Shown: positions 15,656 to 34,455 of the stretch, piece by piece | Layout of the letters: each line of letters opens with the position of its first letter | Position numbering within the stretch: position 1 is the first letter of the stretch | Origin: Beijerinckiaceae bacterium | Lineage (GTDB): Bacteria > Pseudomonadota > Alphaproteobacteria > Rhizobiales > Beijerinckiaceae | Direction of reading: 5' to 3' | Assembly: GCA_019753285.1 (NCBI GenBank) | Contig: JAIELD010000015.1 | Coordinates: 1 to 64,000 of the forward strand | DNA length: 64,000 nt | Notes under the pieces: generated by a model | Database searches by the model: none | Seen by the model: the letters and a program-made list of their open reading frames with translations, nothing else | Told to the model about the DNA's origin: nothing | Position numbers and translations under genes: made by a program

Positions 15656-17167
15656 ATGCTCAAGAACATCCTTTCGGTCGGCGGGTTCACGCTTCTGTCG
15701 CGCATCACCGGGCTGCTTCGCGACCAGTTGATGGCGGCCATCATCGGGCGAGGCGTGATCTCGGATGCGCTGGTCGTGGCGCTCCGCCTTCCCAACCAGT
15801 TCCGCGCCATTTTCGCCGAAGGCGCGTTCAGCGCGGCGTTCGTGCCGGCCTTCCTCAAGGTGCGGACGCGCGAGGGCGTCGCGCAGGGCAATCGCTTCCA
15901 GGCGCAGATCCTCTCGCTCCTGATGATCGCGCAAATCGTCATCGTCGCGCTCGCGCTGCTGTTCACCGAGCCGTTCGTGAAGCTCTTTCTTTCCGATCCA
16001 GGCCGCCTGCCGCTGGCGGTCGAGCTGACGCGCATCACCTTTCCGTTCCTACTGTTCATCACGCTGATGACCTTCTGGTCCGGCGTGCTCAACGCCACGG
16101 GCAAATTCGCGGCCGCCGCCGCAGCCTCGGTCATCATGAATTTATGCTGGATGGGAGCGCTGCTCGTCTCGTTCTGGTTCAAGACGCCTGGCCATGCGGT
16201 TGCCTGGGGCGTCCTCCTCGCCGGCGTGATCGAGGCGGCGTTCGTCGGCTTCGCGGCCCATCGCGCCGGCCTGCTGGTCTGGCCGGCTCGGCCGAAGCTC
16301 GACATCGACGTGAAAGCGTTCTTTCGTTCGTTCGTGCCGGCCGTCATCGGCTCGGCAGGCGTGCAGATCGCCATCCTGGCCGATACCATCATCGCAGGGT
16401 GGCTGCCGATCGGATCGCTTTCGGCGATGTTCTACGCCGAGCGGCTTTACCAGCTTCCCGTCGGCATCATCGCGATTGCCGGCGGCACCGTCCTCCTGCC
16501 GGCGATGAGCCGCCTGATCGCCGAGGGCAAGACGGATGAAGCGCATGCGGCGCAGAACCGGACCGCCGCGATCATCTTCGCCCTCGCCGCTCCCTGCTGC
16601 GTCGCCTTTTTCCTGCTGCCCGACGTGATCATCGCTGGTCTCTTCGAACGCGGTGCGTTCAAAGCGTCCGACACCATCGCCTCTGGCAGCATCCTTGCCG
16701 CGTACAGCATCGGCCTGCCTGCGATCGTGATGATCCGCGCCGTCATCCCGAGCTTCCAGTCGCGTGGCGACACGCGCACCCCCATGCTTGTCTCGCTGTT
16801 CGCGGTCGCGGTCAATGTCGCGTTCAAATTCGCGCTGACCGGCTCGCAGGGCGCGACCGGCCTCGCACTCGCCACCTCGATCGGGGCATGGGTCAACCTC
16901 ATCCTGCTGGTGGCGCTCGCCTGGCGGCGCAAGGAGATGGCCCCGGATGCAGACCTCTTCTGGGGCATCGCAAACACGCTCATGGCCTGCCTCTGGCTGG
17001 TGGCGGCCATTCTGCTCGAGCCATTGCTTTCGGCGCTGGTACTGCGCCTCCCCTCCTTCCATAACGAGGCCCGCCTCGTCCTCGTGGCGCTCGTCGCGGC
17101 GCTCGTCTATTTCGGACTGCTGTTTTCCGGGCTTTCCGCGCTGAAGCTTCGGCTGTTCCGACGCTGA
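15656..17167 (+). CDS. murJ: MurJ/MviN family lipid II (or lipid-linked glycan) flippase
   Basis: 503 aa; LSVGGFTLLSRITGLLRDQLMAAIIGRG..SDALVVALRLPNQFRAIFAEGAFSAAFVP. Confidence 0.92.
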   Translation: MLKNILSVGGFTLLSRITGLLRDQLMAAIIGRGVISDALVVALRLPNQFRAIFAEGAFSAAFVPAFLKVRTREGVAQGNRFQAQILSLLMIAQIVIVALALLFTEPFVKLFLSDPGRLPLAVELTRITFPFLLFITLMTFWSGVLNATGKFAAAAAASVIMNLCWMGALLVSFWFKTPGHAVAWGVLLAGVIEAAFVGFAAHRAGLLVWPARPKLDIDVKAFFRSFVPAVIGSAGVQIAILADTIIAGWLPIGSLSAMFYAERLYQLPVGIIAIAGGTVLLPAMSRLIAEGKTDEAHAAQNRTAAIIFALAAPCCVAFFLLPDVIIAGLFERGAFKASDTIASGSILAAYSIGLPAIVMIRAVIPSFQSRGDTRTPMLVSLFAVAVNVAFKFALTGSQGATGLALATSIGAWVNLILLVALAWRRKEMAPDADLFWGIANTLMACLWLVAAILLEPLLSALVLRLPSFHNEARLVLVALVAALVYFGLLFSGLSALKLRLFRR

Positions 17168-17261
17168 GCCGGGGAGAGCGCGGGAGCAGTCCGTAAACCT
17201 TTCTCGCCTAGACTTCGCCATATGGGCGGCCTGCGAGGCCCGCCTGTTCGGATAGGCGAGA

Positions 17262-18731
17262 ATGAGCCCAGTCACGCATCTGATCGATCACGGCACGCAT
17301 CTCAGGGTAGCGCTCGCCTGCGTCGCAGCTTCGGCACTCTCGCTGTTCCTGCTGCCGGATCCGCTTGTGCTGTTCGCGTTCGCGGCCCTGCCCTTCGGGC
17401 TCGTCGGGGGCTACTATCTCAAGGATTTCCCGTTCCAGCTCTGCCTCGCCTTCGTGATCTTCTCGTTCTTCCGCATTCACGAAGTCTTCCCGGTGCTGAT
17501 CCCGTTCCGTATTCCTCAATTGCTGGCGATCACCACCCTGCTGGCGCTGTGCTGGCATTATTTCGGCACCCGGCTCATCCGGCCCTACTGGTCGATCGAG
17601 CTCATTCTGTTCTTGTGGTTTTTCGCGCTCTGCACCGTCGGCATCGTTTTTGCGACCGATCGCCCGACATCGTTCAAATACTGGAACGAAATCTACGTGA
17701 AAATCGCGGTCATGGTTCTGGCGACGGCCTGGCTTACCCGCGAGCCCAAGCACTTCAACGCGATCTCGAAATACATGACGCTGGCCGGAGTCGCCGTTGC
17801 CGCCGTCACGCTCTACAACAAGGCGAACGGCATCGGGCTCGTCGAGGAGACGCGCGTCACCATCGGCCGGGAGTTCGGCTCCTCGCTCGGCGATCCCAAC
17901 GATTTGTCGCTCGTGCTCCTGTTTCCGATGAGCTTTGCCTGTTCGCTGCTGCTGACGCGCGGCTTGCCGAAATGGCAGCGCCTGCTTGGCCTTGTCAGCA
18001 TGCCGATGATCCTGTCAGCGATCATCGCAACGCAGAGCCGCGGCGGACTTCTAGGCGCAGCGGTCGTGATCGGCGTCTTCGCACGCTACAAGATCCGCTC
18101 GAACGTCGTGCTCGTCACCATAGCCGGCCTTGGCATCGCGATCCTGTTCGCGATGGCGGGGATAGCGGACCGAAAATCGGGCGGCGCGGGCGAGCAAGGC
18201 ATCGATGCGTCGTCGGACGGCCGGCTCTATGCCTGGGGCGCGGCCTTCCGCATGGCGCTTGCTCACCCGCTGACCGGGGTCGGGCTCGACAATTTCGTGC
18301 TCAACTATTGGGACTACAGCAATCTGCGCGACGGGCACAACCACGCCGTCCACTCATCCTGGTTCGGCGTGCTGGCGGAAACCGGCTTCATCGGGCTCGG
18401 CATCTTCGCCACGATGATCGGGCTCGCGCTGCGCAACGCCGTGCTCACCTCCTGGTTGCTCACCAAGAGCCAAGCCCCTGCGCCGGCCAAGGCATTGGGA
18501 CAGGCGCTCGTCGCCGGGCTGACGGCGAGCGCGGTGGCCGGCAGCTTCCTGACGCAGGCCTTCACCTGGCCGTTCTACATCCAGATCGCGCTCATCGTCG
18601 CGCTGTCACGCTATGCCGAAAGCGAGGAGTGGCGGGAGAAGCCGGGCGTCGCCCTTGCCGGTTCAGCGTTTGAACAGGCTTCCGAGAACGCCGCGCACCA
18701 GCGCGCTCCCGATCTGCCTGCCTACAGATGA
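17262..18731 (+). CDS. O-antigen ligase/polymerase (Wzy/WaaL-like) family membrane protein
   Basis: 489 aa polytopic protein; ATQSRGGLLGAAVVIG and HNHAVHSSWFGVLAETGFIGLG motifs. Confidence 0.82.
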   Translation: MSPVTHLIDHGTHLRVALACVAASALSLFLLPDPLVLFAFAALPFGLVGGYYLKDFPFQLCLAFVIFSFFRIHEVFPVLIPFRIPQLLAITTLLALCWHYFGTRLIRPYWSIELILFLWFFALCTVGIVFATDRPTSFKYWNEIYVKIAVMVLATAWLTREPKHFNAISKYMTLAGVAVAAVTLYNKANGIGLVEETRVTIGREFGSSLGDPNDLSLVLLFPMSFACSLLLTRGLPKWQRLLGLVSMPMILSAIIATQSRGGLLGAAVVIGVFARYKIRSNVVLVTIAGLGIAILFAMAGIADRKSGGAGEQGIDASSDGRLYAWGAAFRMALAHPLTGVGLDNFVLNYWDYSNLRDGHNHAVHSSWFGVLAETGFIGLGIFATMIGLALRNAVLTSWLLTKSQAPAPAKALGQALVAGLTASAVAGSFLTQAFTWPFYIQIALIVALSRYAESEEWREKPGVALAGSAFEQASENAAHQRAPDLPAYR

Positions 18732-32829: not shown

Positions 32830-33954
32830 TCAGTTACGGTCGCCATTCCGTCTGGTTTCACTCAGCGGCATCGTAACGTCGACCACAGCGCCGGCATCCG
32901 CATCGCGCCACAGGATCGTCGCGCGAAGCTGCCGCGCAAGCGTCTCGGCCAGCGTCTTGCCGAACGCCGCCGCGAACCAGGACGTCGCTGCGCCCGCCGC
33001 AGCATCCAGCACGGAGATCGCCACTGCGTCGCCTACTGTCCGGACACCGACGGCAAGATCGACACCGCCATCCGCGCGCCCAGCGCGCTTCAGCGCCGGG
33101 GCGAGCAATTCGTTGATGATGAGCGCCAGCGAGGCGGCATCGCTCGTGCGCACCTTGACGCTTTCGATGTCGAGATCGATGCGCCTTGCCTGACCGCCGG
33201 CCCCGCCAGCCAACTGGCCGACGATATCCCTCGTGAATTCGCCGATGTCGAACGTCGCCATGTCGCCGCTCTGATAGAGGCGCTTATGGACGAGGCCGAG
33301 CGCATCGACGCGCTCCAGCATCTCCTGCAGGGTCCGCTTCGCCACGCCGTCGGCGATCGTCATTGATTGCAGCATCAGCATGGCGCTGATCATCTGCAGA
33401 TTGTTCTTCACCCGGTGATCGACCTCATGCAGCAGGAACTGGCTGCGCTCCAGCGCGCTCTCGAGCTCAAGCGTGCGCAGGCGCACCGCGTGTTCGAGAT
33501 TGTCGCGCAGTTCTGCGGCCTCGATCTCATGTCGCTTGCGTTCCGAGACATCGAATTGCGAGGCGAAGAAATACCGGCGCTCACCATGCTCGTCGAAGAC
33601 CGGGCTGATGTAGAGCGAGTTCCAGAACGAGGACCCGTCCTTGCGATAGTTGAGCAGATCGATCGCGATCTCCGTGTTGCCGTCGATGGCGGCGCGTATC
33701 CTGCGCCTCGCAGCCGCATCTGTGCCGGGACCCTGCAGGAAACGGCAGTTGCGTCCGGCAACCTCGCGCCAGCTATAGCCGGTCAGTTTCAAGAAGGCGG
33801 GATTGGCGAAGATGATGGGTTGATCGGGCTGGTTCGGATCGACGATGACCATCGCCATGCCGGACGAGCGAATGGCGGCGAAGAAGGGCGGCCAATCGCC
33901 TGGCGGCACGAGAAGATCATGGGCTTCGATCCATGCGTTCGCACTCTCCATCAC
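32830..33954 (-). CDS. LOV-domain HisKA_2-type sensor histidine kinase-like protein, degenerate ATPase
   Basis: LOV signature GRNCRFLQGPGTD, RKDGSSFWNSLYISPV..FASQFDVSERK; H-box LLHEVDHRVKNNLQMISAMLMLQS. Confidence 0.88.
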   Translation of the reverse strand: MMESANAWIEAHDLLVPPGDWPPFFAAIRSSGMAMVIVDPNQPDQPIIFANPAFLKLTGYSWREVAGRNCRFLQGPGTDAAARRRIRAAIDGNTEIAIDLLNYRKDGSSFWNSLYISPVFDEHGERRYFFASQFDVSERKRHEIEAAELRDNLEHAVRLRTLELESALERSQFLLHEVDHRVKNNLQMISAMLMLQSMTIADGVAKRTLQEMLERVDALGLVHKRLYQSGDMATFDIGEFTRDIVGQLAGGAGGQARRIDLDIESVKVRTSDAASLALIINELLAPALKRAGRADGGVDLAVGVRTVGDAVAISVLDAAAGAATSWFAAAFGKTLAETLARQLRATILWRDADAGAVVDVTMPLSETRRNGDRN

Positions 33955-34129: not shown

Positions 34130-34155
34130 GGAACCAACCGCCTTGCCGACGTGTT
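34130..34155 (+). promoter_or_regulatory. Candidate EcfG (general stress response) promoter for the DUF2188 gene
   Basis: GGAAC at 34130-34134, 17-nt spacer, TGTT at 34152-34155; 57 bp before ATG 34213. Compared with consensus GGAAC-N16/17-cGTT. Confidence 0.55.
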
Positions 34156-34212: not shown

Positions 34213-34455
34213 ATGTCCCGTGTCACTTACCACATTGTCGAGCATGATGGCGGCTGGGCCTACAAGGTCGACGACGTGTTCTCAGAGACGTTTCCAACTC
34301 ACGACCTTGCTCGAAAGGCGGCCGACACCGCAGCGCGCGAGCAGAATGTCGGCGGGCGGGACGAAGCGATCCTCTATGAAGACGCATCCGGCCGCTGGCA
34401 CGAGGAGACCGCGAAGGGCGGCGACCGGCCGGAGACCGAGGTGAAGGAAGGCTAA
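34213..34455 (+). CDS. DUF2188 domain-containing protein
   Basis: 80 aa; YHIVEHDGGWAYKVDDVFSETFPTHDLARKAADTAAREQ; AGGAGAG RBS. Confidence 0.85.
   Translation: MSRVTYHIVEHDGGWAYKVDDVFSETFPTHDLARKAADTAAREQNVGGRDEAILYEDASGRWHEETAKGGDRPETEVKEG

Follow-up and report, generated by a model that had tools for sequence, protein, structure and literature searches.

What does a blue-light receptor of the histidine kinase type do once its ATP-binding motifs have degenerated? In optogenetics LOV histidine kinases serve as parts, and they are regarded as kinases switched by light; a gene from a Beijerinckiaceae bacterium (GCA_019753285.1, contig JAIELD010000015.1) bears on that view. It lies in a stretch of 64,000 nucleotides (positions 1 to 64,000 of the contig), the whole of which we call the window, on contig C12 of a draft genome of 3.47 Mb in 86 contigs that is 82 percent complete. 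The interval given in a preliminary description of the locus (32830-33954) is right; the gene runs on the minus strand, from a GTG start at 33954 to 32830, and its 374 codons encode a protein of 374 amino acids with Pfam matches to PAS (residues 34-138) and HisKA_2 (residues 177-248). The protein has the flavin-binding and photoadduct residues of a LOV domain and a HisKA_2 domain with HRxxN, and it is placed inside the LovK-like LOV-HisKA_2 tree. As its homologues sit in Methylobacterium, Mesorhizobium, Caulobacter and Sphingomonas, the gene is an alphaproteobacterial one. LOV histidine kinases are on top of its PDB sequence matches, Brucella LOV-HK coming first. Its ATPase motifs indicate that it has very probably lost autokinase activity, and the reading that we favour on balance is that of a light-gated histidine phosphotransferase/phosphatase of the LovK lineage.

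The preliminary description had taken the LOV core and the H-box to be intact, and the alignment bears this out: the photoadduct cysteine and the four other LOV residues listed in Table 1 are all present, and the H-box reads HEVDHRVKNNLQ. It had also found the ATP-binding motifs to be degenerate, which is correct for two of the three boxes named. We aligned the protein with 139 LOV-HisKA_2/HWE homologues, 137 of which cover the scored positions. Position 286 of the N-box, the site of the Mg-chelating Asn, is N in 125 of the 137 and Pro in our protein; position 319, the first Gly of the G1 box (LDAAAGA with its preceding residue), is G in 128 of the 137 and Ala in our protein. These frequencies place both departures beyond ordinary family variation. 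It had been allowed that the same positions might vary equally in active HisKA_2 kinases; this is not so for the Mg-Asn, and the argument is weaker for G1 taken alone, as the HWE-type Brucella LOV-HK (6ph4) has ESRGP and is also off DxGxG. The supposed degeneracy of the G2 box was a misreading: AFGKTLAETLARQL is the family norm, close canonical homologues having SFGKRLIETLARQL, and the core AFGKTL, against SFGKRL in the family, retains FG.

The domain as a whole follows the motifs. The Pfam scan found no HATPase match in our protein, nor in the degenerate proteins of the Rhizobium type (L052, L053, L060); both models, HATPase_c and HATPase_c_2, exceed their cut-offs in the canonical relatives L036 and L007. 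The CA domain is disproportionately the most diverged of the three, with a median identity to 19 canonical relatives of 35 percent (LOV 61 percent, DHp 54 percent), and the ratio of CA to LOV identity, 0.58, is below the entire range of the canonical relatives (0.63-0.81). Its fold is predicted to be retained: most of the domain is confident in the AlphaFold model (mean pLDDT 83.4), the strands and helices of the fold are present, and a Foldseek search with the model yielded LOV histidine kinases matching over the full length. The earlier proposal that a light-competent LOV domain, an intact H-box and a defective ATPase make a phosphatase, scaffold or partner rather than a kinase thus finds support in the alignment, in the Pfam scan and in the comparison across the family, once the G2 argument has been taken out of it.

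Is this the accident of a single gene? In a tree built from the LOV and DHp columns only, the protein clusters with L024, L036 and L009 (98/87), and since all three carry canonical ATPase motifs, the loss happened on its own branch. Elsewhere the Mg-Asn has become (i) Asp in Rhizobium rosettiformans, Allorhizobium, R. tropici, two further Rhizobiales and genome G208, (ii) Ile in two genomes of group f16, (iii) His and Asp in Paracoccus and Falsirhodobacter, and (iv) His in one metagenome-assembled genome of the Caulobacteraceae. The tree calls for 5 changes to account for the missing Mg-Asn, and well-supported branches force at least 4 of them; when joint loss of the Asn and G1 is demanded, 3 changes are left. 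Approximately unbiased (AU) tests rejected the union of our protein with the Rhizobium clade (p = 6.8e-11) and with L117/L122 (p = 1.75e-5), and a single event for the Rhizobium clade and L117/L122 is compatible with the data (p = 0.217). The state of one sequence, L123, in which the Asn is gone and DDDG is kept, suggests that the Asn was lost before G1. Searches of groups f11 and f2 for further members of the Rhizobium type yielded few.

One apparent member without a CA domain, L125 of genome G346, was rejected, as a CA domain with intact NELVTNAIRHA and SDNGRGMP lies just downstream in another frame. The gene is frameshifted, not degenerate, and was therefore dropped, which brought the count from 6 to 5 changes. 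The frameshift in this LovK-like gene (L125/L151, G346:C7) falls between DHp and CA and is either real or a sequencing error.

In two other lineages the degenerate CA domain is under purifying selection. The ratio of nonsynonymous to synonymous substitutions (dN/dS, Nei-Gojobori) in the CA domain, for pairs within degenerate clades, is 0.044 (L052/L053), 0.052 (L070/L057) and 0.085 (L117/L122). Canonical pairs have values just as low; dS exceeds 1, so that the figures are rough. Decay therefore does not explain the degenerate domain in the lineages of these pairs.

The published biochemistry of LovK, PhyK and PhyT (PMC5964349, PMC5898713) led us to sharpen the proposed function to phosphotransferase/phosphatase. 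In Caulobacter, phosphate moves from MrrA~P to LovK and from there to LovR, LovK mutants in G1 or G2 are phosphorylated by MrrA~P like the wild type, the study saw no significant autophosphorylation of wild-type LovK, and LovK-LovR acts as a phosphate sink that drains the general stress response; PhyK, in turn, works as a phosphotransferase and can do without its ATP site in vivo (PMC5964349). Sphingomonas PhyT/PhyP is a bifunctional HisKA_2 phosphotransferase with a degenerate ATPase (PMC5898713). By its published description it shares HisKA_2, HRxxN and the degenerate ATPase with our protein, which differs from it in being a LOV photoreceptor. With Caulobacter LovK our protein shares the LOV and HisKA_2 layout and a similar length, and the homologues in Caulobacter genomes are 47-49 percent identical to it; they keep the N-box Asn, DxGxG and an adjoining LovR-like gene, whereas our protein is without all three. 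Rubellimicrobium RT-HK and Erythrobacter EL346 have the same LOV-DHp-CA order, and the EL346 structure (4r3a) aligns over all domains; unlike our protein, EL346 has TNA in its N-box and DDGRG, and RT-HK autophosphorylates (PMC12148442). The LOV domain of Brucella LOV-HK (LOV-PAS-HWE) is 53-57 percent identical to that of our protein, but the Brucella protein has an extra PAS domain and a CA domain of the HWE type.

The protein thus probably relays or drains phosphate instead of making it. Judging from the intact LOV residues, blue light would form an adduct between Cys70 and the flavin; the change would travel through the coiled coil and alter the readiness of H180 to accept phosphate from a phosphorylated single-domain regulator, and H180 would then donate the phosphate to, or strip it from, a LovR-like or PhyR-type receiver. 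The net effect would be that light tunes how phosphate moves through the general stress response network, with the protein probably acting as a sink or brake.

A single-domain response regulator lies within some tens of bases downstream of almost every member of the LovK-like clade, whether canonical or degenerate, and the regulators beside the degenerate proteins of all lineages retain the acidic pair, the phospho-acceptor Asp, the Thr or Ser and the Lys. The genome of our protein has, unlinked to the gene, PhyR (NF006623, E 2.4e-110), two NepR matches and an extracytoplasmic function (ECF)-type sigma factor on contig C9, the latter assigned from the translated sequence next to nepR, and a LovR-like regulator on C79. 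This regulator is 45 percent identical to that of L036 and above the cut-off of NCBIfam NF009972; the call uses the BLAST rows of C79_1, as the row C79_0 in the regulator tree is an out-of-frame artefact, and that tree does not settle its orthology to LovR. A further unlinked single-domain regulator, with the motif PFAFATGY, on C42, is related to SdrG (5ieb, E 1.3e-19) and to 2lpm (E 3.4e-34). At that locus (L171, G000:C42 about 16900-17400) two single-domain response regulators, PFVFTTGY and PFAFATGY, are divergently arranged and are candidate hubs of the general stress response.

Some points weigh against a phosphotransferase/phosphatase. No open reading frame for a receiver, and thus no adjoining LovR-like gene, was found in the window, although nearly all members of the family have one (the sister L009 is likewise without an adjacent regulator). 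The exact Pro/Ala state occurs in our protein alone, and the selection data come from other lineages. Finally, an earlier study, as cited in PMC5964349, has Caulobacter LovK autophosphorylating.

The protein could instead be the acceptor in a heterodimer gated by LOV, in which a different HisKA_2 kinase uses its intact CA domain to phosphorylate H180 in trans. The H152A and N256A mutants of RT-HK complement in trans (PMC12148442), so that a subunit without the Mg-Asn can receive phosphate from a partner, and the genome holds five other HisKA_2 kinases; one of them, on C75, is 31 percent identical to our protein over DHp-CA, with its motifs intact. However, mixed dimers between different sensor genes are not known from this family, and every other degenerate lineage has a receiver, rather than a further kinase, as its conserved neighbour, which makes this arrangement unlikely. 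The second LOV protein of the genome, L002 (G000:C27:29275-29646), is a multi-PAS histidine kinase in an open frame of 1114 amino acids, and its LOV domain is 52 percent identical to that of our protein.

We also hold it improbable that the gene is simply decaying, with LovR already gone and the CA domain following. The locus is an orphan without LovR, the end branch is long (0.53), and the single other genome of the genus has no orthologue. Against this, the frame of 374 codons is intact (not a strong argument, as frames stay open easily at such GC content), the GC content by codon position is normal across the three domains (0.78-0.86 at third positions; weak evidence), the LOV domain and the H-box are fully conserved and the model of the CA domain is mostly confident.

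That the protein remains active as a kinase and binds metal and ATP in a non-canonical way is very unlikely. It retains N281, E282, D317, G321, F331 and G332 and, in the model, the fold, and Brucella LOV-HK shows that a LOV histidine kinase may be off DxGxG; but the near-invariant Mg-Asn is gone, and in RT-HK the mutation of this residue alone (N256A) leaves no measurable autophosphorylation (PMC12148442). Least probable of all is that the protein serves purely as a scaffold or as a switch of protein interactions and leaves H180 unused, as H180 and the HRxxN motif are fully retained in our protein and in the degenerate lineages.

A promoter for the stress sigma factor before the gene was looked for and rejected: the window holds no exact GGAAC-N15-18-CGTT, and near the gene the looser form occurs only for the divergent DUF2188 gene. 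This site, GGAAC-N17-TGTT at 34130-34155 (+), lies upstream of that gene and has the shape of one found before nepR in the stress locus of C9 (L146 5662). The looser pattern matches about 4 percent of random 401-base stretches, and the site is a weak hint that the DUF2188 gene may possibly be a member of the stress regulon. SigT controls lovKR in Caulobacter. GGAAC-N16-CGTT sites lie 120-140 bases upstream of the LovK match in Caulobacter L048, L049, L055 and L062, in agreement with this published control.

Table 1. Features of the light-receptor gene and its divergent neighbour (window coordinates).
Feature	Coordinates	Strand	Basis
Putative LOV-HisKA_2 pseudo-histidine kinase, 374 aa, GTG start; stop codon 32830-32832	32830..33954	-	
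LOV domain, residues 26-140, with C70, Q74, N102, N112, Q133	33535..33879	-	Pfam, PDB matches, alignment
DHp (HisKA_2) domain, residues 170-250; phospho-acceptor H180 in HEVDHRVKNNLQ	33205..33447	-	Pfam PF07568 E 4.6e-21; alignment
Degenerate CA (ATPase) domain, residues 251-366; fold predicted to be kept	32857..33204	-	no HATPase match; AlphaFold model
N-box NELLAPALKRA, residues 281-291; Pro at 286 in place of the Mg-chelating Asn; N281 and E282 kept	33082..33114	-	alignment
G1 box DAAAGA, residues 317-322; D317 and G321 kept, Ala in place of the first Gly (319)	32989..33006	-	alignment
Divergent neighbour, DUF2188 protein, 80 aa; context only, outside the system	34213..34455	+	GGAAC-N17-TGTT site at 34130

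The component parts of such a protein and degenerate HisKA_2 phosphotransferases are already known. In the open-access literature that we searched, most subscription papers being outside its scope, we found no description of LOV pseudo-histidine kinases; new with respect to it are the photoreceptor version, the independent losses that recur in the LovK family and, in some lineages, the purifying selection that acts on the dead domain. For the family as a whole we would tentatively propose, at somewhat less than even odds, that autokinase activity is generally dispensable in LovK proteins and has been lost repeatedly, leaving histidine phosphotransferases in which blue light opens or closes a phosphate drain rather than switching a kinase. 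The natural and repeated loss of the ATP motifs, partly maintained by selection and with the His and the receivers kept, speaks for the model of Caulobacter LovK as a phosphotransferase and phosphate sink, and the degenerate LOV proteins offer ready-made kinase-dead material in which the light control of phosphotransfer can be studied apart from kinase activity.
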